Positions 36,257-50,013 of a DNA stretch of 64,000 nt are shown here, one piece after another. The DNA comes from Luteithermobacter gelatinilyticus (GTDB lineage: Bacteria > Pseudomonadota > Alphaproteobacteria > Sphingomonadales > Emcibacteraceae). How positions within the stretch are numbered: the stretch's first letter is position 1; every line of letters begins with the position of its first letter. The notes beneath the pieces are model-generated. The model searched no databases and was not told the origin of the DNA. It worked only from the letters and a program-made list of their open reading frames with translations. The position numbers were made by a program, and so were the translations under genes. The DNA lies in the NCBI RefSeq assembly GCF_005849285.1, contig NZ_CP040517.1:112501-176500 (forward strand), written 5' to 3'.

Positions 36257-36271
36257 GCACAATTCACTCTA
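36257..36271 (-). repeat. Mini-element end, copy 6 (forms a stop codon)
   Basis: Minus strand: TA then GAGTGAATTGTGCAC. The TA plus G are the TAG stop of the acyl-CoA dehydrogenase gene. The second arm is not recognisable. Confidence 0.65.
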
Positions 36272-37450
36272 GAACGCATTGAGTCCGGTTTGCAGGCGGC
36301 CGAGGATAAGGGCGTGGACATCATGGGTGCCCTCATAGGTATTGACCGCCTCCAGGTTGAGCACATGGCGGATGACATGGTATTCGTCGGCGATGCCGTT
36401 GCCGCCATGCATGTCGCGGGCGGTACGGGCAATCTCCAGCGCCTTGCCGCAATTGTTGCGCTTGAGCAGGGAAATGGCATCTGGCGACAGCTTGCCTTTG
36501 TCCTTTAAGCGTCCCGCCTGCAGACAGGCATGCAGCCCCAGCGTGATCTCGGTTTGCATGTCGGCGAGTTTTTTCTGGATCAGCTGGGTGGCCGCCAGCG
36601 GCCGGCCGAACTGCTTGCGGTCGAGGGTATATTGCCGCGCCGCATGCCAGCAGAATTCCGCCGCCCCCAGCGCCCCCCAGGCGATGCCATAGCGGGCGTT
36701 GGAAAGACAGCCCAACGGGCCCTTCAGTCCTTCTACCCCCGGCAGCAGATTGTCCTCCGGCACAAACACCTCGTCCATTACGATCTCGCCGGTAATCGAG
36801 GCGCGTAAGGAAAACTTGCCTTCGATCTTGGGGGCGGAAAGCCCCGTCATACCTTTTTCCAGGATAAACCCGCGCACCACCCCGTCATCGCATTTGGCCC
36901 ACACCACAAACACATCGGCAATCGGGCTGTTGGTGATCCACATCTTGGCGCCGCTTAAGGAATAGCCGCCGTCGACGCGCCGCGCCCGGGTCTGCATGCC
37001 CGCCGGATCGGACCCCGCATTGGGTTCGGTGAGGCCAAAACAGCCGACCCATTCGCCGGTGGCGAGCTTGGGCAGATATTTTTCCTTCTGTGCGTCCGAG
37101 CCATAGGCATAGATCGGATACATCACCAGCGAACTTTGCACGCTCATGGCGGACCGATAGCCGCTGTCCACCCGCTCCACCTCGCGCGCAATCAGGCCAT
37201 AGGCCACATAGCCCACCCCGGCGCAGCCATACCCGTCAATGGTCGGGCCCAAAAAGCCCAGCTCGCCCATCCGGGTCATGATCGAGCGGTCGAAAATCTC
37301 ATGCCGGTGCGCCTCCTGAACCCCCGGCAGCAACACCTCCTGACAGAAATCCCGCGCACTGTCCCGGATCAGGCGTTCCTCTTCCGTAAGACTGTCCTCC
37401 AGCAACAGCACATCATCCCACGGCGCACTCGGCCAGCTAAATTTGCTCAT
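36269..37450 (-). CDS. gcdH: Glutaryl-CoA dehydrogenase
   Basis: 393 residues from ATG 37450, after AGGAG. Oxidative decarboxylation of glutaryl-CoA to crotonyl-CoA with [55 protein letters not shown] is the GCDH-type FAD/substrate region, and the catalytic Glu lies in [18 protein letters not shown]. Serves lysine and tryptophan breakdown, and also the end of CoA-dependent aromatic routes. Its stop is supplied by a repeat. An inverted repeat sits just upstream of the start. Confidence 0.9.
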
Positions 37451-37474
37451 TATCTTCACTCCTGAATATATTGT

Positions 37475-37512
37475 GAAGAAAAGTCCTTCACTGTTTCAGC
37501 ATACTTTTCTTC
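37475..37512 (-). promoter_or_regulatory. Inverted repeat upstream of gcdH
   Basis: GAAGAAAAGT (37475-37484) and ACTTTTCTTC (37503-37512) are exact complements separated by 18 bases, about 25 bp before the gcdH start. Arm size and position suit a regulator binding site covering the promoter. Confidence 0.55.
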
Positions 37513-37626
37513 GATGTTTTGCAAGATGTCAATCTGGGTCGGGGGCTTTCGTAAGTCATTTATGATATGAAAGAGTCCTCGCGAGGACCCGATCCCGTCT
37601 TGACGCGGTTTCCGGGAAACGGATGT

Positions 37627-38049
37627 TCAGGCGGTTTCCCGCGGCAATACCGCCGTAGTTTCAATTTCGATTTTGGCCTCCTTTTCCACCAGGGCAGTAA
37701 CCCCAACACAGGCCATGGTGGGGAAGTTTTTCCCCATATATTCCCGGTATACGGCACCGATTTCCGGCAGCCGGCGGCGATATTCCTCCATATCCGTCAC
37801 ATACCAGGTCAGTCTGACCACATGTTCAGGACCGGCCCCAGCTTCGACCAGCAGGGCCGTGATGTTAATCAGGCATTGGCGGAACTGGTCCACCAAATCG
37901 TCACTGGGAAATTCTTCCTTTTCATTCCAACCGACGGTGCCGGCCAGGAAGATCATTTCTCCCTCACACATGATACCGTTGGAATATCCCTTGGGCCTGG
38001 GCCAGTCGGGGGGGAGGAGAATTTTTCCCTTGGTTCCTGTCTTGTTCAT
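37627..38049 (-). CDS. RidA-family enamine/imine deaminase
   Basis: 140 residues from ATG 38049 (GAGGTGATT before it). YjgF/YER057c/UK114 fold: YSNGIMCEGEMIFLAGTVGWNEK and DDLVDQFRQCLINITALLVEAGAG are the family segments, with VRLTWYVTDMEEYRRRLPEIGAVYREYMGKNFPTMACVGV. The usual catalytic Arg before the TxxGV block is not apparent, so substrate may differ from classic RidA. Divergent from the monooxygenase/reductase gene; in an anthranilate pathway it could hydrolyse an enamine intermediate and release ammonia. Confidence 0.82.
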   Translation of the reverse strand: MNKTGTKGKILLPPDWPRPKGYSNGIMCEGEMIFLAGTVGWNEKEEFPSDDLVDQFRQCLINITALLVEAGAGPEHVVRLTWYVTDMEEYRRRLPEIGAVYREYMGKNFPTMACVGVTALVEKEAKIEIETTAVLPRETA

Positions 38050-38278
38050 AATCACCTCATCGTCATTTTGCTGTCAATCAGCTTTCAGGGTCTTAAAATT
38101 TGTTGCAAAAAAATATTTCATGTTTAAAATAATAAATCAACAGAAATAAAAAAATCCAGGGATAACAAGGGTTTTCAGGGTCTGAAGAAGGGATAAACTA
38201 ATTCAAATTAATTAATATAAAACAATAGGATAGAGTTTTATCCCTGATTCTCTGGTAGGTAACAAAAGACTGTTTTGC

Positions 38279-38296
38279 TTATACATTTAAGTATAA
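38279..38296. promoter_or_regulatory. Palindromic operator candidate of the aromatic cluster
   Basis: TTATAC-ATTTAA-GTATAA, with perfectly complementary 6-bp arms, 39 bp before the ATG at 38335. The 285-bp region between ridA and the monooxygenase gene is strongly AT-rich. A MarR protein encoded at 41462 is the obvious candidate binder. Confidence 0.55.
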
Positions 38297-38334
38297 AATA
38301 AATAGTCAATGAACGAGTCGAAAGGATCTTCATT

Positions 38335-40659
38335 ATGAAAATCGTGTGTTTGGGCGGTGGCCCCTCTGGTGTATATCTTGCCATTTCCATGAAATTGCGC
38401 AACCCCGAGCATGACATCACCGTGTATGAACGGAATCGCCCCGATGATACCTTTGGTTGGGGGGTGGTGTTTTCCGATCAGACCATGGAAAACCTACGTG
38501 CCAATGACCCGGTCAGTGCGGAAAACATGATCGGTGAGCTTATTCATTGGGATTATATTGATGTTCATGTCAAAAATGAAGTGGTCCGCTCCGGCGGTCA
38601 CGGTTTTATTGGCATCGGCCGCCAGCGGCTTCTGGACATTCTGTATAACCGCGCCCGGGAACTGGGTGTGAAAATGCATTTCCAGACGGAGATTGAGCTA
38701 GAGGACCTGGAGCAGTTTTCAGATGCGGACCTGATTGTGGCCGCCGATGGTCTTAATTCCAAGGTGCGGAACAATAATCTAGAAGCCTTTGACTGCGATA
38801 TTGATGTGCGCCCCAATAAATTTGTTTGGCTTGGCACCCACCAGCGATTCGATGACGCCTTTACCTTTATTTTCGAGGAAACCAAGCATGGCTGGATGTG
38901 GGTGCACGCCTACCAGTTCGACAAGGATACGTCCACCTTTATCGTAGAATGTGGTCCGGAAACTTATGATGCCTGGGGTTTCGAGCATATGAGCCATGAA
39001 GAAAGCGCCGAAACCTGTCGTCAGATTTTTGAAAAATATCTGGGCGGTCACAAGCTGATGACCAAATCCTCCCATATTCGCGGTTCGGCCTGGATCAACT
39101 TCCCGCGGGTGCTGTGCCATACCTGGGTCAAGGATAATATTGTATTGATCGGGGATGCGGCCCACACCGCGCATTTCTCCATCGGGTCAGGCACCAAGCT
39201 GGGGTTTGAGGACGCCATTAACCTTGCCGAACATCTTAATTCCGGCCTGCCGGTCAAGGACGCCCTGAAAACTTATCAGGACGAACGGGAACTGGAGGCG
39301 CTTAAATTGCAGTCCGCCGCCCGCAACTCCATGTCCTGGTTCGAGGAACTGGACCGGTATCTCGATTTTGATGTGACGCAGTTCACCTATTCGCTGCTGA
39401 CCCGTTCGCAGCGCGTCAGCCATGAAAATCTGCGTCTGCGCGACAAGGAATGGCTGGAAGGCGTGGAGAAATGGTTCTCCGACCGGGCGTTCCGGGCCGT
39501 GGGCAAGCAGCCGCCGGAAGGCAAGGCGCCGCCGCCAATGTTTACCCCTTACAAGATCCGCGATATGGAACTGGTCAACCGGGTGGCGGTCTCTCCCATG
39601 TCCATGTATTCCGCCAAGGACGGCCTGATCAACGATTTCCATTTTGTCCATTACGGCGCGCGGGCCATAGGCGGGGCTGGTCTTCTGTTCACGGAAATGA
39701 CCGATGTGTCCGCCGAAGGACGCATCACCCCCGGTTGTGCCGGCATCTATACGGATGAACACACCCAGGCCTGGAAACGGGTTGTGGATTTTGTCCATGA
39801 ACACAGCCAGGCGAAAATCGCTTTGCAGCTTGGTCATGCGGGCCGCAAAGGGTCCACCAAAGTGGGCTGGGAAGGCTACGATGTGCCGCTGGATGACGGC
39901 AACTGGGAACTGATTGCGCCCTCGCCGATCAAATGGGACGACGCCAACCAGACCCCGCGGGAAATGCAGAAAGAGGATTTTGACCGGGTGCTGAACCAGT
40001 TTGTGGAAGCCACCTGTCGGGCCGAGGAAGCCGGATTCGACATGGTTGAGCTGCATGCCGGCCACGGATATCTGCTGTCCTCCTTCATCACGCCGGTCAG
40101 CAACCAGCGGACCGATGAATATGGCGGCTCTCTGGAAAACCGTCTGCGGTTCCCAATCGAGGTGTTCAAGGCGATGCGCGATGTGTGGCCGGATCATAAA
40201 CCGATGTCGGTGCGGATTTCTTCCACGGACTGGATCGGCAAGGACGGGATTACGCCCGAGGATGCCGTGTTGATCGCCAAGGCTTTTGTGGATGCGGGCG
40301 CCGATATTATTGATGTGTCCACCGGACAGACCCTGCCGGTTCACAAGGTCAACCCGGTCTTCGGGCGTATGTTCCAGACCCCCATGTCGGACCAGATCCG
40401 CAACGAGGGGCATGTGTCCACCATGGCGGTTGGCAACATCTTTGAAACCGATCATGTCAACAGCATCCTGGCGGCGGGCCGCGCTGATCTGGTGCTCATT
40501 GGTCGGCCGCATCTGATGGATCCGCAATGGGTCATCCGCAGCGCGGCCGAGCAGGAATATCACGGGCCGGCGGTTCAGGTGCCCAAACAGTATCTGACGG
40601 CCTTCACCCAGCTGGAGACCAATCTCAAGCGGGCCGCCGAAATGGCCCTGAATGCGTAA
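38335..40659 (+). CDS. Bifunctional aminobenzoyl-/salicylyl-CoA monooxygenase-reductase
   Basis: 774 residues fusing two flavoproteins. Residues 1-385: FAD aromatic hydroxylase ([42 protein letters not shown]). Residues about 395-770: Old Yellow Enzyme-like FMN reductase ([73 protein letters not shown]). The same fusion is known in Azoarcus evansii 2-aminobenzoyl-CoA monooxygenase/reductase and in salicylyl-CoA 5-hydroxylases. It hydroxylates and then reduces the ring of the CoA ester. First gene of a plus-strand operon with SDR, MarR, hydratase, dehydrogenase and ligase. Confidence 0.88.
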
Positions 40660-40684
40660 CGGCTAAATGCCTGAGGAGAATATT

Positions 40685-41452
40685 GTGACAGGACGTTTGC
40701 AAGGAAAACATGCCATTGTCACCGGCGGCGGCCGGGGGATCGGGGCCGCCATCGCCGATGCTCTGGCAGCCGAAGGCGCACGGCTCAGTCTCTTGGGCCG
40801 CAATGAAGAGGTGCTGCAAGCCAAAGCGGAAAGCCTGCCTGAGGCAATCCCTCTGGCCTGCAATGTGACCGATGAAGCGGCTGTGGCGGCGACTTTCGCC
40901 GCCGCCCGTGAAAAATACGGCCCGGTGGATATTCTGGTCAATAACGCCGGGGCGGCCAAATCGGTGCCGTTTCTGAAAACCCGGCCCGATGACCTCAGGG
41001 CCATGCTGGATGTGAATCTTTTGGGGCCGTGGTTGTGCATGCAGGCGGCATTGCCGGATATGCTGGACAAGGGCGCGGGGCGTATTGTCACCGTGGCCAG
41101 TACCGCGGCGCTTAAAGGGTATGCCTATGTCACCGCTTACGGTGCCGCCAAACACGGGGTGCTGGGGCTGACGCGGGCGCTGGCTCTGGAACTGGCCCAG
41201 AAGGGGGTGACCGTGAACGCGGTCTGCCCCGGCTTCACCGAAACGGATATTGCTTTTGATGCGATAGAGAATATTATGGCCAAGACCGGCCGCAGCCGTG
41301 AAGAGGCCGTGGCCGAATTGGCCAAGCACAATCCGCAGAAACGGTTTATCCAGCCGGCAGAAGTGGCGGCGGCGGTGTTGTGGCTGTGCCAGGAAGACAG
41401 TGGATCAATCACCGGGCAGGCCATTTCCGTGGCCGGCGGAGAAGTAATGTAA
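40685..41452 (+). CDS. SDR-family beta-hydroxyacyl-CoA dehydrogenase
   Basis: 255 residues from GTG 40685, chosen because GAGGAG lies 7 bases before it; ATG 40667 is an in-frame alternative. Classical SDR: TGGGRGIG (cofactor), LVNNAGAAKS, catalytic Ser in VASTAALKG and YGAAKHG. The middle of an aromatic CoA operon suggests oxidation of a hydroxyacyl-CoA ring-derived intermediate, as proposed for the Azoarcus abm genes. 25 bp after the monooxygenase gene. Confidence 0.82.
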   Translation: MTGRLQGKHAIVTGGGRGIGAAIADALAAEGARLSLLGRNEEVLQAKAESLPEAIPLACNVTDEAAVAATFAAAREKYGPVDILVNNAGAAKSVPFLKTRPDDLRAMLDVNLLGPWLCMQAALPDMLDKGAGRIVTVASTAALKGYAYVTAYGAAKHGVLGLTRALALELAQKGVTVNAVCPGFTETDIAFDAIENIMAKTGRSREEAVAELAKHNPQKRFIQPAEVAAAVLWLCQEDSGSITGQAISVAGGEVM

Positions 41453-41461
41453 GGGGCGGCG

Positions 41462-41968
41462 ATGCCGGACACCAGCACAACCGACAGCAGCAAGAAACGC
41501 CTGGGGCTCTGGCTCCGGCTGATTACCGACAGCACCATGATCGAAAAAGAGGTTCGCGGCCGGTTCCGCAATGAATTTGGCGTGACCCTGCCGCGGTTCG
41601 ATCTGATGTCTGCGCTGTATCGGGCGCCGGGTGGTCTGACCATGGGCGAATTGTCGAAACAGCTTCTGGTGTCCAATGGCAATGTGACAGGCGTTGTTGA
41701 GCGGTTGCAGAAGGAGGGGCTGGTCAAACGCTGGGTATTGCCTACAGACCGGCGAATCTACAGCGTGGGGTTGACCCCCAAGGGGCGCACCGTGTTCAAG
41801 GAAATGGCCGACCGCCACGAAGGCTGGATTAATGAAATTCTCGGCGATCTGGATGACGATCAAGTGGATCGGATCCTGCATGATCTGGATGTGCTGAAGG
41901 ATCTTCTTAAAAAACGTAACGAAACGGCGAAAGCGGAAAGTCAAACCAAAGCTCAGGCCAGAAGCTAG
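41462..41968 (+). CDS. MarR-family regulator of the aromatic cluster
   Basis: 168 residues. Winged helix LTMGELSKQLLVSNGNVTGVVERLQKEGLVKRWVLPTDRRIYSVGLTPKGRTVFKEM. Embedded in the operon between SDR and hydratase, so probably autoregulated with the CoA ester as inducer. The 3' end runs into a short repeat region (41936-42010): the AAAGCTCAGGCC unit occurs twice with related copies between, on both sides of the TAG stop, so the C-terminus may be a recent length variant. Confidence 0.85.
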   Translation: MPDTSTTDSSKKRLGLWLRLITDSTMIEKEVRGRFRNEFGVTLPRFDLMSALYRAPGGLTMGELSKQLLVSNGNVTGVVERLQKEGLVKRWVLPTDRRIYSVGLTPKGRTVFKEMADRHEGWINEILGDLDDDQVDRILHDLDVLKDLLKKRNETAKAESQTKAQARS

Positions 41969-42025
41969 GCCCAAACCAAAGCCCAAATCAAAGCTCAGGC
42001 CAAAAGTGTCAAGAAGGAAAAAATT

Positions 42026-42835
42026 ATGAAAATGGCGACGTTGAAACCGCAACATTTTATCTGGGACATGCAGGACGGGGTGGCGGTAATCCGGCTGAAC
42101 CGGCCGGAGCGGAAGAACCCGCTCACCTTTGAGTCTTATGCGGAATTGCGTGATACCTTCCGCAGTATGGTTTATGCCGAGGATGTCAAAGCGGTGGTTT
42201 TTGCCAGCAATGGCGGCAATTTCTGTTCCGGCGGTGATGTGCATGACATCATCGGCCCGCTGTTGCAGCGGGACATGAAGGGGCTTCTGGAATTCACCCG
42301 CATGACCGGCGATCTGGTCAAGGCCATGATTTCCTGCGGAGTGCCGATCATTTCCGCCATTGACGGGGTGTGTGTGGGGGCCGGGGCCATGGTGGCGCTG
42401 GCATCTGATATTCGTTTTGCCACGCCCGAGGCCAAAACCGCCTTTCTGTTTACCCGCGTCGGACTTGCCGGCTGCGACATGGGAGCCTGCGCCTTGCTGC
42501 CGCGCATGATCGGTCAGGGCCGGGCGGCGGAGCTTCTTTATTCCGGGCGCGTCATGACTGCCGAGGAGGGCGACAAATGGGGTTTTTATAACCGGCTTGT
42601 CCCGGCGGACTCTCTGGAGGAAGAAGCCATTGCCTTTGCCCGGAGACTTGCCGAAGGCCCCAACTTCGGGCATATGATGACCAAAACCCAATTGCTCAGA
42701 GAATGGGATATGTCTTTGGAGGCGGCCATCGAGGCCGAAGCCCAGGCCCAAGCCATCTGCATGCAGACCAAGGATTTCCAGCGGGCCTATGATGCTTTTG
42801 TGGCCAAGGAAAAACCCGTCTTCAAAGGGGACTAA
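42026..42835 (+). CDS. Enoyl-CoA hydratase-family protein of the aromatic cluster
   Basis: 269 residues, crotonase superfamily: [21 protein letters not shown], oxyanion segments [14 protein letters not shown] and [48 protein letters not shown]. The long loop [18 protein letters not shown] differs from fatty-acid hydratases and fits aromatic-pathway relatives. It hydrates or opens an unsaturated cyclic CoA intermediate. The stop TAA overlaps the start context of the dehydrogenase gene (1-bp gap). Confidence 0.83.
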
Positions 42836-42836
42836 A

Positions 42837-44012
42837 ATGACAAAACTGGATCAGACCTATCTTCACTGGCCGTTTTTTGAAGACCGTCACCGCACGCTCG
42901 CCCGGGATCTGGACCGATGGGCCCGGGACAACCTTTCCGGACTGAGCCATGACCGCGATAAGGTGGACGGGACCTGCCGGGAACTGGTGCGCCGGCTGGC
43001 TGCCGGGGGCTGGCTCAACTATGCGGTGCCGGATGCAGAGAGTGGCAAGCTGGATGTGCGCAGCCTGTGTCTGATCCGGGAAACGCTGGGACGTTATGAC
43101 GGTCTGGCGGATTTTGCCTTTGCCATGCAGGGACTCGGCAGCGGGGCCATCTCGCTGTATGGTTCCGAGGATCAGAAACAGACCTATCTTCCTGAGGTGG
43201 CGGCAGGGCGCAAGATCGCTGCCTTTGCCCTGTCGGAACCCCATGCCGGTTCCGATGTGGCGGCCATGAGCACCTCTTTCCGCGGAGACGGGGACGATCT
43301 TGTCCTGAATGGCTGCAAAACCTGGATTTCCAACGGCGGCATTGCCGATTTTTATGTGGTGTTTGCTCGTGAGGAAGGCACAACGGGCAGCAAAGGCATT
43401 TCCGCCATTATCGTGGATGCGGACACGCCAGGGTTCGAGGTGGCCGAACGGATCGAGGTGTCGGCGCCGCATCCCCTGGGGAAACTGATCTTTAAGGACT
43501 GCCGGGTGCCGCGCCGCAAGCTGATTGCCGAACAGGGACGCGGGTTTCGTTATGCCATGGGCACGCTGGACGTGTTCCGCTCCACAGTGGGTGCTGCGGC
43601 CATGGGCTTTGCCAAACGGGCGCTTCTGGAAGCTTCCGAGCGGGCGACCAGCCGGCACCTGTTTGGGGCCCCCATGAGCGACTTGCAGATTATTCAGTCT
43701 AAAATCGGCGATATGGCGCTCCATATTGACGCCAGCGCCCTGCTGATCTACCGGGCCGCCTGGACCAAGGATCTGGTGGCGGAACGGGTGACGCGCGAGG
43801 CGGCCATGGCGAAGCTGTTCGCCACCGAGGCGGCGCAGAAAATCATTGACGATGCGGTACAGATTTTCGGCGGTCAGGGGGTAGTGTTTAACGAAACCGT
43901 GGAACGGCTGTATCGGGAAATCCGCTCGCTGCGAATTTATGAGGGAGCCTCGGAAGTGCAAAAAATTATTATTGCAGGCCAGGCGCTTGCCCCGTATAAA
44001 GAAGAAAAATAA
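42837..44012 (+). CDS. Acyl-CoA dehydrogenase of the aromatic cluster
   Basis: 391 residues from ATG 42837. [50 protein letters not shown] is the FAD/substrate signature; [27 protein letters not shown] holds the catalytic Glu. FAD-dependent alpha,beta-dehydrogenation of an alicyclic or opened CoA ester in the pathway. Directly follows the hydratase. GGCCGGAA...TTCCGGCC in the following 110 bp gives a possible attenuating hairpin before the ligase gene. Confidence 0.86.
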
Positions 44013-44124
44013 ACTCAAAAACAGGCCGGAAAATATAAAGATCAACAAGGTGTTCCGGCCGGTCGTTTAAGGGCTTTGGCGGATCAGTCTCACGGCAGTT
44101 GTAAGACACAAAACGAGGTGAAAT

Positions 44125-45744
44125 ATGTCTTATCCAACTGCCCATCAGGACCATTTTGCGCGCAAGAACTTGCCGCCCCGGGAGACGTGGCCGGATTTTC
44201 TTCTGGATCTTCCGGGGTACAGTTTTCCCGATCGGGTGAATGCGGCGACCGATATTCTGGAGTCCCAGATTGCCGCCGGACGGGGCTGGAAACCTGCGCT
44301 GCTGTTTGAGGACCAGGCCTGGACTTACGAGGAACTGAACCGCAAAGCCAATCAGATCGCGCGCGGCCTGACCGAGGAAATGGGGTTGATCCCGGGCAAT
44401 CGGGTTTTGTTACGGGGCTTTAACAATCCCATGATGGTGGCCGCCTGGTTTGGGGTGCTGAAAGCCGGCGGTATTGCGGTGGCGACCATGCCGTTGCTCC
44501 GGGCGCGGGATCTTAAGCCGATTTTGGCCAAGGCGGAAATCAGTCATGCGTTATGCGATGTGCGGCTCAGGGAAGAGCTGGACCTGGTGGCAGCGGCCTG
44601 TCCGACCCTGAAACAAACAGGATATTTCAGCGCCTTGGGCACGTCCGAGACGGCATTCGATCGTCTGGTTGCTGCCCAGGTGCCGGATTTTGAGACGGTG
44701 GAGACCGCGGCCGAGGATGTGGCGCTGATCGCGTTCACCAGTGGTACCACCGGCAATCCCAAGGGCTGCATGCATTTCCACCGGGATATTCTGGCCATGA
44801 ATTATTGTGTGGGGGAAAAACTTTTGGGGCTGAGGCCGGATGACCGGGTTGTGGGCAGCCCGCCCATAGCCTTTACCTTCGGGCTTGGCGCCCTGGTGAC
44901 ATTTCCCCTGAAGGCGGGGGCGAGTGTGGTTCTTCTGGAAAAACCGTCTCCGGCTGTCCTGCTAGAGGCCATTGCAACATATCGTGCCACCTGGTGTTTC
45001 ACGGCGCCGACTGGGTACCGGGCGATGCTGGACAATCTGGAGGGGGTGGATCTTTCCTCGCTGAAGAATTGTGTCTCAGCGGGGGAGCATCTGCCGCTGC
45101 CCACCTTTGAGGCGTGGCAAAAGGCGACAGGTCTGAAACTGATCAACGGCATTGGTGCGACGGAAATGATCCATATCTTCATTTCCGCCAAGGGGGACGA
45201 GATTCGTCCCGGCGCCACCGGCAAGGCCATTTATGGTTATGAGGCGCGGGTGGTGGATGACGATATGAACGATGCGCCACCGGGGGAGGTGGGGCGGCTG
45301 GCGGTGCGTGGCCCGACCGGCTGTCGCTATCTCAATGATCCGCGGCAAAAAAACTATGTCCGCAATGGCTGGAATCTCACCGGGGATGCTTACCGCCGGG
45401 ATGAAGACGGATATTTCTGGTTCCAGGCCCGCGCCGACGATATGATTATTTCCTCTGGGTACAATATCAGCGGGCCGGAAGTGGAAGAATGTCTGCTGGC
45501 GCATGCGGCGGTGCGGGAATGCGCCGTGATTGGCGTACCGGACGAGGCGCGCGGTCAGCGCATCAAGGCGTTTGTGGTGCTCAATGACGGATTTTCCGCC
45601 GGGCCGGTATTGATCCAGGAATTGCAGGATTTTGTCAAAAACACCATTGCGCCCTATAAATATCCCCGGGAAATCGAATTTGTGCAGACTCTGCCCAAGA
45701 CGGAGACCGGCAAGATCCAGCGTTTCAAGCTACGCCCGGCATGA
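44125..45744 (+). CDS. Benzoate/2-aminobenzoate-CoA ligase
   Basis: 539 residues, AMP-forming aryl-CoA ligase. ATP motif IAFTSGTTGNPKGCMHFHRDIL (about 202-223), GIGATEMIHIF (about 345-355), GYNISGPEVEECLLAHAAVRECAVIG, and the catalytic Lys in PKTETGKIQRFKLRP. The benzoate-CoA ligase subgroup is clear (MHFHRD, IGATEM.HIF). Given the bifunctional monooxygenase/reductase and RidA, anthranilate is the likely substrate. It primes the pathway by making the CoA ester. Confidence 0.86.
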   Translation: MSYPTAHQDHFARKNLPPRETWPDFLLDLPGYSFPDRVNAATDILESQIAAGRGWKPALLFEDQAWTYEELNRKANQIARGLTEEMGLIPGNRVLLRGFNNPMMVAAWFGVLKAGGIAVATMPLLRARDLKPILAKAEISHALCDVRLREELDLVAAACPTLKQTGYFSALGTSETAFDRLVAAQVPDFETVETAAEDVALIAFTSGTTGNPKGCMHFHRDILAMNYCVGEKLLGLRPDDRVVGSPPIAFTFGLGALVTFPLKAGASVVLLEKPSPAVLLEAIATYRATWCFTAPTGYRAMLDNLEGVDLSSLKNCVSAGEHLPLPTFEAWQKATGLKLINGIGATEMIHIFISAKGDEIRPGATGKAIYGYEARVVDDDMNDAPPGEVGRLAVRGPTGCRYLNDPRQKNYVRNGWNLTGDAYRRDEDGYFWFQARADDMIISSGYNISGPEVEECLLAHAAVRECAVIGVPDEARGQRIKAFVVLNDGFSAGPVLIQELQDFVKNTIAPYKYPREIEFVQTLPKTETGKIQRFKLRPA

Positions 45745-45864
45745 CCGTAGGGGAGCCGGGATAACCGTAGGGGAGGAAGCGTTATTATGCGCCAGTGCCG
45801 CAATCCATGCTGCCCCTGGCGAAGATAGGAACAGGGAGGCTAGCCACAGGGGGCCTTGTCCGCT

Positions 45865-46293
45865 TCAGGACGCGGAGTCCTCCATGGGGATCAGGAACTG
45901 TTCCATCCGGGCACGGATGTCGCCGGGGATGGGGGTGGCTTTGACCTGCGCCTTGCTGGCCCAGACAATGGTATGATGGTTGATCAGCCGGTCTTCGCCG
46001 TCATGCTGGACGCGTATTTCGAGATCAATGCGGCTGCGCCCCAGGGATTTCACCCCCAGAAACACGTCAAGCTTCTCGCCCAGCCGACTGGCTTTAAGGA
46101 AAGTGGTATCCACATGCACGGTCGGGGTCATGTGGTCTTCCTGCATCAGCGTGGCATAAGGCATCTCCAGCGGGCCTTCAAACCATTTTTCCAGAACTTC
46201 ATTGAATATTTCAAAATAACGTGGAAAAAAAACAATGCCGGCCGGATCGGTATGGTTGAAGCGGACGGTAATTTGGGTATGGAAATACTTCAT
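45865..46293 (-). CDS. 4-hydroxybenzoyl-CoA thioesterase-family protein
   Basis: 142 residues, hot-dog fold. TVRFNHTDPAGIVFFPRYFEIFNEVLEKWFEG carries the catalytic Asp of the 4HBT group. Hydrolyses aryl- or acyl-CoA; next to the CoA ligase it may release trapped CoA from dead-end esters. Convergent with the ligase gene, divergent from the Lrp-like gene. Confidence 0.85.
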   Translation of the reverse strand: MKYFHTQITVRFNHTDPAGIVFFPRYFEIFNEVLEKWFEGPLEMPYATLMQEDHMTPTVHVDTTFLKASRLGEKLDVFLGVKSLGRSRIDLEIRVQHDGEDRLINHHTIVWASKAQVKATPIPGDIRARMEQFLIPMEDSAS

Positions 46294-48882: not shown

Positions 48883-50013
48883 ATGAAAAAATGGATTTCT
48901 TTTCCGCACCGGGCGGGCAGGCACTCCCGCCAGGCGCATGTGGATCTGCCGGACGGCACTTATGAGCGTGAAATGGGCAAGGAAGGTTTCTTTGGTCCGG
49001 CGGCGCATTTTTATCACACGCACATTCCCACCGGATGGAGCGATTTTCAGGGGCCGCTCAGGCCGCACGCCTTTGATACCAATCTGCTGAGCGAGTTCGG
49101 GGGCTCGCCGTGGGATGCCGAGCAACTTCTGGGCAATGCCCATCTGCGTCTCAGAATCTGGAAAACGGACCGGGACATGGATCATCTGGTGCGTAATGCC
49201 GATGGGGATGATCTGTTGTTTGTGCATCATGGTCAGGGGGATTTGTATTGTGATTTCGGACATTTGGCTTATGAGGCCGGCGATTATATTGTGATCCCGC
49301 GGGGCTGCATGTGGCGTCTGGCGCCTGCGCAAAAAACGGAACTGCTGATGGTTGAGGCGACGGGCAGCCATTATCAGCTGCCGGACAAGGGGCTGGTGGG
49401 GCCGCATGCCATTTTCGACCCGGCGATGCTGGATATACCGGCCCTGGACGATGCCTTCGAAACGCAAAGGAGCGACAATGAGAACTGGCGTGTGGTGGTC
49501 AAGGCGCGTCAGCAGCTCAGCACCATCACCTATCCCTTCAACCCGCTGGATGCGGTGGGCTGGAAAGGGGATCTGAGCGTAGTGCGGGTCAATGTCCGCG
49601 ACATCCGCCCGCTGATGAGTCACCGCTATCACCTGCCGCCCAGCGCCCATACCACCTTTGTGGCGGGCCGGTTTGTGGTCTGCACTTTTGCGCCGCGGCC
49701 CATCGAAAGCGACCCCGGCGCGCTGAAGGTGCCATTTTATCATAATAATGATGATTATGACGAAGTGATCTTCTATCACCGGGGCAATTTTTTCAGCCGC
49801 GATAATATCGAGGAAGGCATGATTACCTATCATCCTTTCGGGTTTACCCACGGCCCCCATCCCAAGGCGTTCGAGGCCGGGAAAAAGGCGGCGCTGAAGG
49901 AAACGGACGAGATTGCCGTGATGATCGACAGCCGCGATGCGCTGGATATCGGCGCGGCAGCGGAACGCGTGGAAAACAACGACTATGTAAACAGCTGGAA
50001 ACCGAAAGACTAG
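48883..50013 (+). CDS. hmgA: Homogentisate 1,2-dioxygenase
   Basis: 376 residues. Cleaves the ring of homogentisate to maleylacetoacetate in Phe/Tyr catabolism. The bicupin fold is evident; Fe ligands and substrate residues lie in NNDDYDEVIFYHRGNFFSRDNIEEGMITYHPFGFTHGPHPKAFEAG. Start ATG 48883 after AGAAGGACAGGG. First gene of the hmgA-fahA-maiA operon. It is somewhat shorter than the roughly 430-residue Pseudomonas enzyme. Confidence 0.93.
   Translation: MKKWISFPHRAGRHSRQAHVDLPDGTYEREMGKEGFFGPAAHFYHTHIPTGWSDFQGPLRPHAFDTNLLSEFGGSPWDAEQLLGNAHLRLRIWKTDRDMDHLVRNADGDDLLFVHHGQGDLYCDFGHLAYEAGDYIVIPRGCMWRLAPAQKTELLMVEATGSHYQLPDKGLVGPHAIFDPAMLDIPALDDAFETQRSDNENWRVVVKARQQLSTITYPFNPLDAVGWKGDLSVVRVNVRDIRPLMSHRYHLPPSAHTTFVAGRFVVCTFAPRPIESDPGALKVPFYHNNDDYDEVIFYHRGNFFSRDNIEEGMITYHPFGFTHGPHPKAFEAGKKAALKETDEIAVMIDSRDALDIGAAAERVENNDYVNSWKPKD

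Follow-up and report, generated by a model that had tools for sequence, protein, structure and literature searches.

A RidA-family protein as candidate deaminase in a predicted anthraniloyl-coenzyme A degradation cluster of Luteithermobacter gelatinilyticus

Introduction

The genome of Luteithermobacter gelatinilyticus is a single contig of 3.15 Mb, of which a stretch of 64,000 nucleotides (positions 112501-176500; hereafter the window, whose own numbering is used below) is considered here. Between positions 36269 and 46293 the window holds a gene cluster, and its genomic context supports the prediction that aerobic catabolism of anthraniloyl-coenzyme A (anthraniloyl-CoA) of the abm type is encoded there. 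This type of cluster is already known; what is new is that its deamination step now has a specific candidate. This is the RidA-family protein encoded at 37627-38055 on the minus strand, a member of a clade linked to the monooxygenase/reductase AbmA and the best candidate for the nitrogen-removing enzyme. It is considered probable that the cluster as a whole serves the breakdown of anthranilate as its CoA ester, with the RidA of this clade as an enamine deaminase. The narrower proposal, that this distinct Rid clade without Arg105 and partnered by AbmA is the missing deaminase and would act on a cyclic enamine CoA thioester, is judged to lie just on the favourable side of even.

The initial annotation of the window had described the same set of genes and had suggested that RidA may remove the nitrogen. 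The gene set is real: in a check of open reading frames (ORFs) all named genes were intact at the coordinates given below, and their families are those assigned at first, with a MarR gene inside the operon that had not been listed. The suggestion about RidA stands on co-occurrence and active-site residues as far as a candidate is concerned and does not go beyond it; the association of RidA with AbmA is an observation, and the deamination is the reaction that we infer.

Association of RidA with AbmA

AbmA (38335-40659, plus strand) is a 774-amino-acid frame which holds both PF01494 and PF00724. It is a fusion protein of the 2-aminobenzoyl-CoA monooxygenase/reductase type, in which a flavin adenine dinucleotide (FAD) monooxygenase is joined to a reductase domain of the Old Yellow Enzyme family, and it matches NF006101 with 1234 bits (cut-off 1078). 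Its nearest matches among named records, from which the window's own record was possibly excluded, are Emcibacter and other alphaproteobacterial metagenome-assembled genomes (MAGs) at about 80% identity. RidA is transcribed in the opposite direction, and the two genes are separated by a divergent promoter region of 279 bp (38056-38334).

A profile (A1) of 24 cluster RidAs was used to follow the clade in 249 Pseudomonadota genomes, including the window's own, for which a completeness of at least 95% was requested; the limits were E <= 1e-120 for AbmA and E <= 1e-30 for clade RidA, and two of the profile members (those of the window and of G035) belong to these test genomes. Of the 46 genomes with AbmA, 45 have a clade RidA, whereas none of the 203 AbmA-less genomes does; the sole AbmA genome lacking it (G292) had a best match of 52 bits. 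Fisher's test gives 6e-49 for this distribution, which is overstated, the genomes being related. Among the 60 nearest genomes, 51 were counted as having AbmA on a fusion-type match of at least 290 bits (several being truncated at contig ends); clade RidA was present in 49 of them and in 0 of the 9 others, and both AbmA genomes without it (G025 and G044) are fragmented assemblies with a partial AbmA. In this set the clade scored at least 182 bits against A1 and the other listed matches at most 81, save one of 105 bits at a contig end. More telling than the Fisher figure is the behaviour of genera of mixed state (g9 and g21 in the smaller set, g10 and g36 in the larger one), the members of which hold both genes or neither.

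The two genes are also close to each other. RidA lies at most 13 kb from AbmA in 38 of the 45 genomes, on a different contig in five and far apart in two. It was seen in 24 of the 49 loci L035-L083, many of the others ending at a contig or locus boundary. When the whole genomes behind 11 RidA-less loci were searched, a clade-like RidA was found in nine (128 to 193 bits) and none in two MAGs titled Olavius-associated Delta 1 and Desulfobacterales; RidA-less AbmA loci were therefore mostly rejected as counterexamples. Where RidA stands outside the AbmA locus, other cluster genes accompany it in nine of ten such loci (the exception is L166), as in Sphingomonas, where a crotonase, an acyl-CoA dehydrogenase and a ligase gene stand beside RidA away from the AbmA locus. 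RidA is annotated within the cluster of P. denitrificans, R. pomeroyi, Phyllobacterium, Aminobacter and Deinococcus. It can be said that RidA, which together with the thioesterase had at first been taken as an addition to the pathway, is a regular partner of AbmA that recurs in most AbmA genomes and is not peculiar to Luteithermobacter; a thioesterase gene, for its part, adjoins RidA in many other clusters. As a separate observation, eleven genomes of genus g3 carry a further clade RidA (L160:9455-9835, L161:9381-9767, L162:9519-9899), with no AbmA nearby in the three loci inspected.

Fold and active site of the clade RidA

The RidA of the window matches PF01042 with 86.7 bits (cut-off 27.3), and its AlphaFold model is confident, with a mean predicted local distance difference test score (pLDDT) of 90.6. 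All fold matches shown belong to the Rid family; 5v4f is close (root-mean-square deviation, rmsd, 2.1; template modelling scores, TM, 0.79/0.84), and the remaining matches shown superpose poorly over full alignments, with rmsd values of 5.5 to 12.5. Compared with the archetypal RidA subfamily, the protein has the family and the fold and lacks the active-site Arg105, as Met114 aligns with the Arg of PH0854 and YabJ which marks this position.

All 24 rows of A1 have Met at the Arg105 position, as do all 58 clade rows of a larger set (in which the window gene counts twice and from which fragments below 90 residues were removed), including the proteins of Deinococcus and, more distant, of plasmid pAL1 (NC_009453) of Arthrobacter sp. 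Rue61a; one ordinary RidA from the window's genome, aligned in the same set, keeps the Arg. Sixty further clade proteins, 55 of which are the remaining matches of the 249-genome search, have Met in 54 cases and Ser in six. The Ser rows, with 126 to 131 bits, are second and weaker copies, each accompanied by a Met copy in the same genome; all six genomes belong to genus g39 (L235-L240). Each of the 45 clade-RidA genomes has a Met copy, and Arg stands at this position in no clade row. The active-site residue Glu130 is kept in every row of the 58-row and 60-row sets, and the Tyr24 position is Tyr or Phe in both, one gap excepted.

In RidA the Arg binds the carboxylate of the substrate, and the subfamilies Rid4-7, in which it is missing, have been termed mysterious in the principal survey of the Rid family (PMC4433059). 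The loss of Arg105 fits the proposed substrate, because a CoA thioester offers no carboxylate to bind.

Anthranilate as the probable substrate

The initial annotation had read the cluster as a route of anthraniloyl-CoA degradation and had advised a look for kynureninase genes; the reading is supported. Genes for tryptophan 2,3-dioxygenase and kynureninase lie about 1.7 kb apart elsewhere in the genome, both above curated cut-offs, and a kynureninase gene stands within 8 of 41 AbmA loci (L060, L061, L128, L129, L135, L139, L142, L146); those counted have at least 47% identity to the kynureninase of the window's genome, and the 25-27% matches of one genus were left out. In Ruegeria pomeroyi a single gene separates the tryptophan dioxygenase gene from AbmA. 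The source of anthranilate in Luteithermobacter would most likely be tryptophan, via kynurenine. No anthranilate 1,2-dioxygenase reached its cut-off in the genome, the single match having 184 bits against 671.9.

A parallel is offered by pAL1, in which the RidA gene is three genes from an AMP-binding ligase gene and AbmA. A ligase of the Rue61a plasmid makes anthraniloyl-CoA, and the strain grows on anthranilate and not on salicylate (PMC3534580); judged from its position beside AbmA, the AMP-binding gene of pAL1 appears to encode that ligase. As a side observation, genus g5 (L121-L125, L144, L145) has a second AbmA type, 44-48% identical and with a ligase of its own, which stands apart from the operon of short-chain dehydrogenase/reductase (SDR), crotonase and dehydrogenase, mostly with a distant kynureninase-like protein.

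Proposed deamination and alternative explanations

According to the proposed scheme, the ligase would form anthraniloyl-CoA, and AbmA, by the known chemistry of its family, would oxygenate and reduce the ring to 2-amino-5-oxocyclohex-1-ene-1-carboxyl-CoA, which is the product reported for AbmA-type enzymes (PMC4539516, PMC3534580). From this cyclic enamine RidA would release ammonia by hydrolysis, leaving 2,5-dioxocyclohexane-1-carboxyl-CoA. The later steps are proposed less firmly: SDR might reduce a ring ketone, the crotonase might hydrolyse a C-C bond and so open the ring, and degradation might be finished by the acyl-CoA dehydrogenase together with general beta-oxidation enzymes. A CoA ester of composition C7H8O4, tentatively a cyclohexanedione-carboxyl-CoA, was found only in anthranilate-grown Arthrobacter Rue61a (PMC3534580); it fits deamination before ring opening, because 2,5-dioxocyclohexane-1-carboxylic acid is C7H8O4.

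Several points weigh against this scheme. Below pH 5 the amino-oxo ester is not stable, and in the Rue61a work formic acid served to quench the samples, which were then dissolved and kept at pH 3.5 (PMC3534580); all or part of the C7H8O4 signal may therefore be artefactual. Five searched genomes (G292, G025, G044, G069, G070) hold AbmA without clade RidA, and co-occurrence is silent on which step RidA serves. In archetypal RidA, Arg105 is required for imine hydrolysis, and the Arg-less S. enterica Rid7 and Y3550 were inactive on the amino-acid imines and 2-aminoacrylate used (PMC4433059, PMC7221256). As far as the substrate is concerned, kynureninase is above its cut-off in 40 of 51 AbmA genomes versus 6 of 9 without AbmA among the 60 relatives, for which reason it was dropped as a phylogenetic marker of AbmA, and five of these relatives with AbmA (G003, G005, G030, G033, G046) gave no kynureninase match whatsoever; tryptophan dioxygenase is above its cut-off in 24 of the 60. 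Finally, the NCBI model NF006101 which the window AbmA passes is named "bifunctional salicylyl-CoA 5-hydroxylase/oxidoreductase".

The most serious alternative, itself regarded as unlikely, is that the enamine hydrolyses spontaneously or on another enzyme, and that RidA merely clears leaked enamine or imine and is not obligatory. Archetypal RidA is known to pre-empt damage (PMC4433059), in acid the AbmA product loses its amino group chemically (PMC3534580), and the clade RidA is absent from a few AbmA genomes; yet its presence in 45 of 46 AbmA genomes, its absence alongside AbmA and the fact that Arg105 is consistently lost speak for a dedicated role, and the genome holds three other RidA-family proteins. 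It is quite improbable that some other enzyme of the cluster is the deaminase and that the Arg-less RidA is noncatalytic and either partners AbmA in binding or assembly or senses a ligand: the active-site Glu is present in all rows and Tyr or Phe in all save one gapped row, and none of the ten scanned proteins otherwise belongs to a deaminase family, even though the function of the Arg-less Rid4-7 is unassigned and Y3550 was without Rid deaminase function (PMC4433059, PMC7221256).

The name of NF006101 does not discriminate between salicylate and anthranilate, because the AbmA homologue in the anthranilate cluster of pAL1 bears it as well. The label is probably misleading, given that it is attached to that enzyme and to clusters with tryptophan-catabolism genes. 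Gentisate ring-cleavage genes are the defining companions of the salicylyl-CoA 5-hydroxylase pathway, and none was seen in a scan of ten proteins from the cluster and its flanks, the other flanks being scanned in part and the genome not being searched for them. Degradation of salicylate via salicylyl-CoA and gentisyl-CoA, for which the passed cut-off of NF006101 speaks, is very improbable, since the near-constant partner of AbmA is a RidA-family protein and salicylate contains no nitrogen, since kynureninase and/or tryptophan dioxygenase genes lie within the AbmA locus of several genomes, and since the host of the same-named pAL1 enzyme uses anthranilate and not salicylate (PMC3534580). Thus, of the two substrates kept as alternatives in the initial annotation, salicylate is unlikely, and the sole argument for benzoate is the family name of the ligase.

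Remaining genes of the cluster

Because the same gene set recurs in relatives, the grouping of these genes is not a matter of chance. On the plus strand AbmA is followed by SDR (40667-41452), a candidate ring-ketone reductase, by the MarR-family regulator (41462-41968), which stands inside the operon between SDR and crotonase, and by the crotonase-fold protein NF006107 (42026-42835; 474 bits, cut-off 330), a candidate ring-opening hydrolase. The acyl-CoA dehydrogenase comes next (42837-44012), its start being uncertain (42789 in the ORF call, 42837 used here), and then the aryl-CoA ligase (44125-45744), proposed as anthranilate-CoA ligase, whose match to TIGR02262 is borderline (375.4 bits, cut-off 375.25) and which is present in the AbmA cluster of many relatives. 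The hotdog (YbgC/FadM-like) thioesterase is encoded on the minus strand (45865-46293), matches 4HBT_2 with 52.4 bits (cut-off 25.5) and may release or rescue CoA esters. In relatives, a protein of about 250-265 amino acids comes after RidA, GcdH and enoyl-CoA hydratase (L036:6422-7216, L041:3774-4532), and matches nothing in Pfam, nor anything in NCBIfam under the strict limit applied.

Enoyl-CoA hydratases rely on two catalytic glutamates. In the window crotonase Met and Phe stand at these two columns, and both glutamates are missing in 13 of 13 cluster crotonases, which all keep an Asp, and present in the three canonical hydratases from relatives. With both catalytic glutamates missing, a plain hydratase role of the cluster crotonase is unlikely, and it may be a C-C hydrolase. 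A ring hydrolase of the BadI type is not claimed, as the BadI model is not among the best 25 of 69 NCBIfam matches. Nor is the crotonase universal, as four long Burkholderiales loci (L072-L075) yielded none.

GcdH (36269-37459, minus strand) begins 167 bp after RidA on the same strand and, with 638 bits to human glutaryl-CoA dehydrogenase (1sir) across residues 10-396, is by its sequence a true glutaryl-CoA dehydrogenase. Such a gene adjoins RidA or AbmA in several families. It is not the only copy: a second gene of the same genome (1982485-1983663) differs in one residue of the 393 compared and, over 1263 bases, in about 4% of the DNA; its neighbours are genes for a class III aminotransferase and a CoA-transferase III (L178, L180). 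Between RidA and GcdH stand a hairpin resembling a terminator (37590-37573, minus strand) and a match resembling a promoter (37477-37449), both of a kind common by chance, and with them in between a single transcript of the two genes is not claimed.

Farther along the window, at 48883-50013, lies a homogentisate dioxygenase-like gene of 376 amino acids only (92.6 bits, cut-off 510.75), after which fumarylacetoacetase-like and glutathione transferase-like genes come; together they are perhaps a divergent tyrosine-catabolism set.

Regulation

The region between RidA and AbmA contains a candidate operator, a palindrome-like element of 18 bp at 38114-38131, which is kept in relatives. The pattern was derived from the intergenic regions of these relatives, so its presence there is by construction, and the independent tests are shuffles of the window and a search of the genome with the reversed pattern as control. 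The element is the sole match in the window at up to two mismatches, and 100 shuffles gave none. With at most one mismatch it stands upstream of AbmA in the 13 same-family relatives inspected (in L118 RidA is not beside it), and in three genomes of another family it precedes the SDR of an SDR-MarR operon which includes RidA. In the genome there are one other exact match and nine further places with one or two mismatches, and the reversed control gave 0 and 1 matches versus 9 and 9; at three of the nine mismatched sites (L182-L184) no related catabolic genes were recognised. A second repeat, TATAC-N6-GTATA at 38280, was dropped, as its exact form occurs in none of 13 relatives and a looser variant in one (L037).

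The MarR protein of the operon probably acts at the palindrome, in which case RidA and AbmA would be made together. The other exact match (genome position 2216744; about 5245 in L181) lies 6 bases before a frame called paaH, the first gene of a paaH-thioesterase-thiolase-paaK set in the phenylacetate cluster. It suggests that two CoA-ester pathways of aromatic compounds may be under shared control, and the phenylacetate genes would then supply a 3-hydroxyacyl-CoA dehydrogenase and a thiolase, both absent from the cluster. For Rue61a, too, it has been proposed that paaK is cross-regulated, there by the quinaldine-gene regulators (PMC3534580).

Significance

The clade would bear on two questions at once, namely the removal of nitrogen in this pathway and the Arg-less Rid subfamilies discussed above (PMC4433059). 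If the proposal is true, Rid proteins without the Arg can be deaminases for substrates that have no free carboxylate. Since the clade occurs in laboratory-tractable strains, Paracoccus denitrificans PD1222 and Ruegeria pomeroyi DSS-3, a direct test is possible. The findings suggest, moreover, that many such genes are misleadingly labelled by the automatic name "salicylyl-CoA 5-hydroxylase".

Comparison with known systems

The oxygenase/reductase of the anthraniloyl-CoA pathway was described in 1990 (cited in PMC3534580). In the openly licensed PMC literature, as far as its accessible passages go, no enzyme assigned to nitrogen removal in this pathway was found, nor any paper joining an anthranilate-CoA ligase to kynureninase, nor any link between RidA and the pathway, the nearest being an earlier prediction of RidA-family enamine deaminases in the aromatic catabolism of the betaproteobacterial BoxR and CatM/BenM regulons for benzoate and catechol (PMC6449761). 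There, Thauera Tmz1t_3130 is predicted to act possibly on a benzoate derivative, and in these passages no connection to anthraniloyl-CoA or AbmA is drawn. The cluster shares the CoA ligase, the monooxygenase/reductase and the later steps of beta-oxidation type with the 2-aminobenzoyl-CoA (abm) pathway of Azoarcus/Aromatoleum evansii, for which the accessible account of a review names no deaminase (PMC4539516).

The cluster of pAL1 is alike in uniting an AMP-binding ligase, AbmA, a thioesterase-domain protein and a Met-bearing RidA. It differs in gene order and in its PaaX-type regulators, and no SDR, crotonase or acyl-CoA dehydrogenase is listed nearby in a gene table that is incomplete; its RidA is distant, with 99 bits versus at least 140 for the other clade rows.

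The 2-aminomuconate deaminase (AmnE/AmnD) also belongs to the Rid family and releases nitrogen during the breakdown of an aromatic compound, but its substrate is a free dicarboxylate, its Arg117 is conserved (PMC6742747) and it scores 28 bits against the clade profile. RutC, the 3-aminoacrylate deaminase, is a Rid-family enzyme devoted to one catabolic operon (PMC8113886), though the operon and the substrate are different and the score to the clade profile is 38 bits. With the archetypal RidA (YjgF/UK114) enamine/imine deaminases the clade has in common PF01042, the Glu and the Tyr (or Phe); the archetype keeps Arg105, whereas the clade has Met in most of its members and Ser in six second copies.

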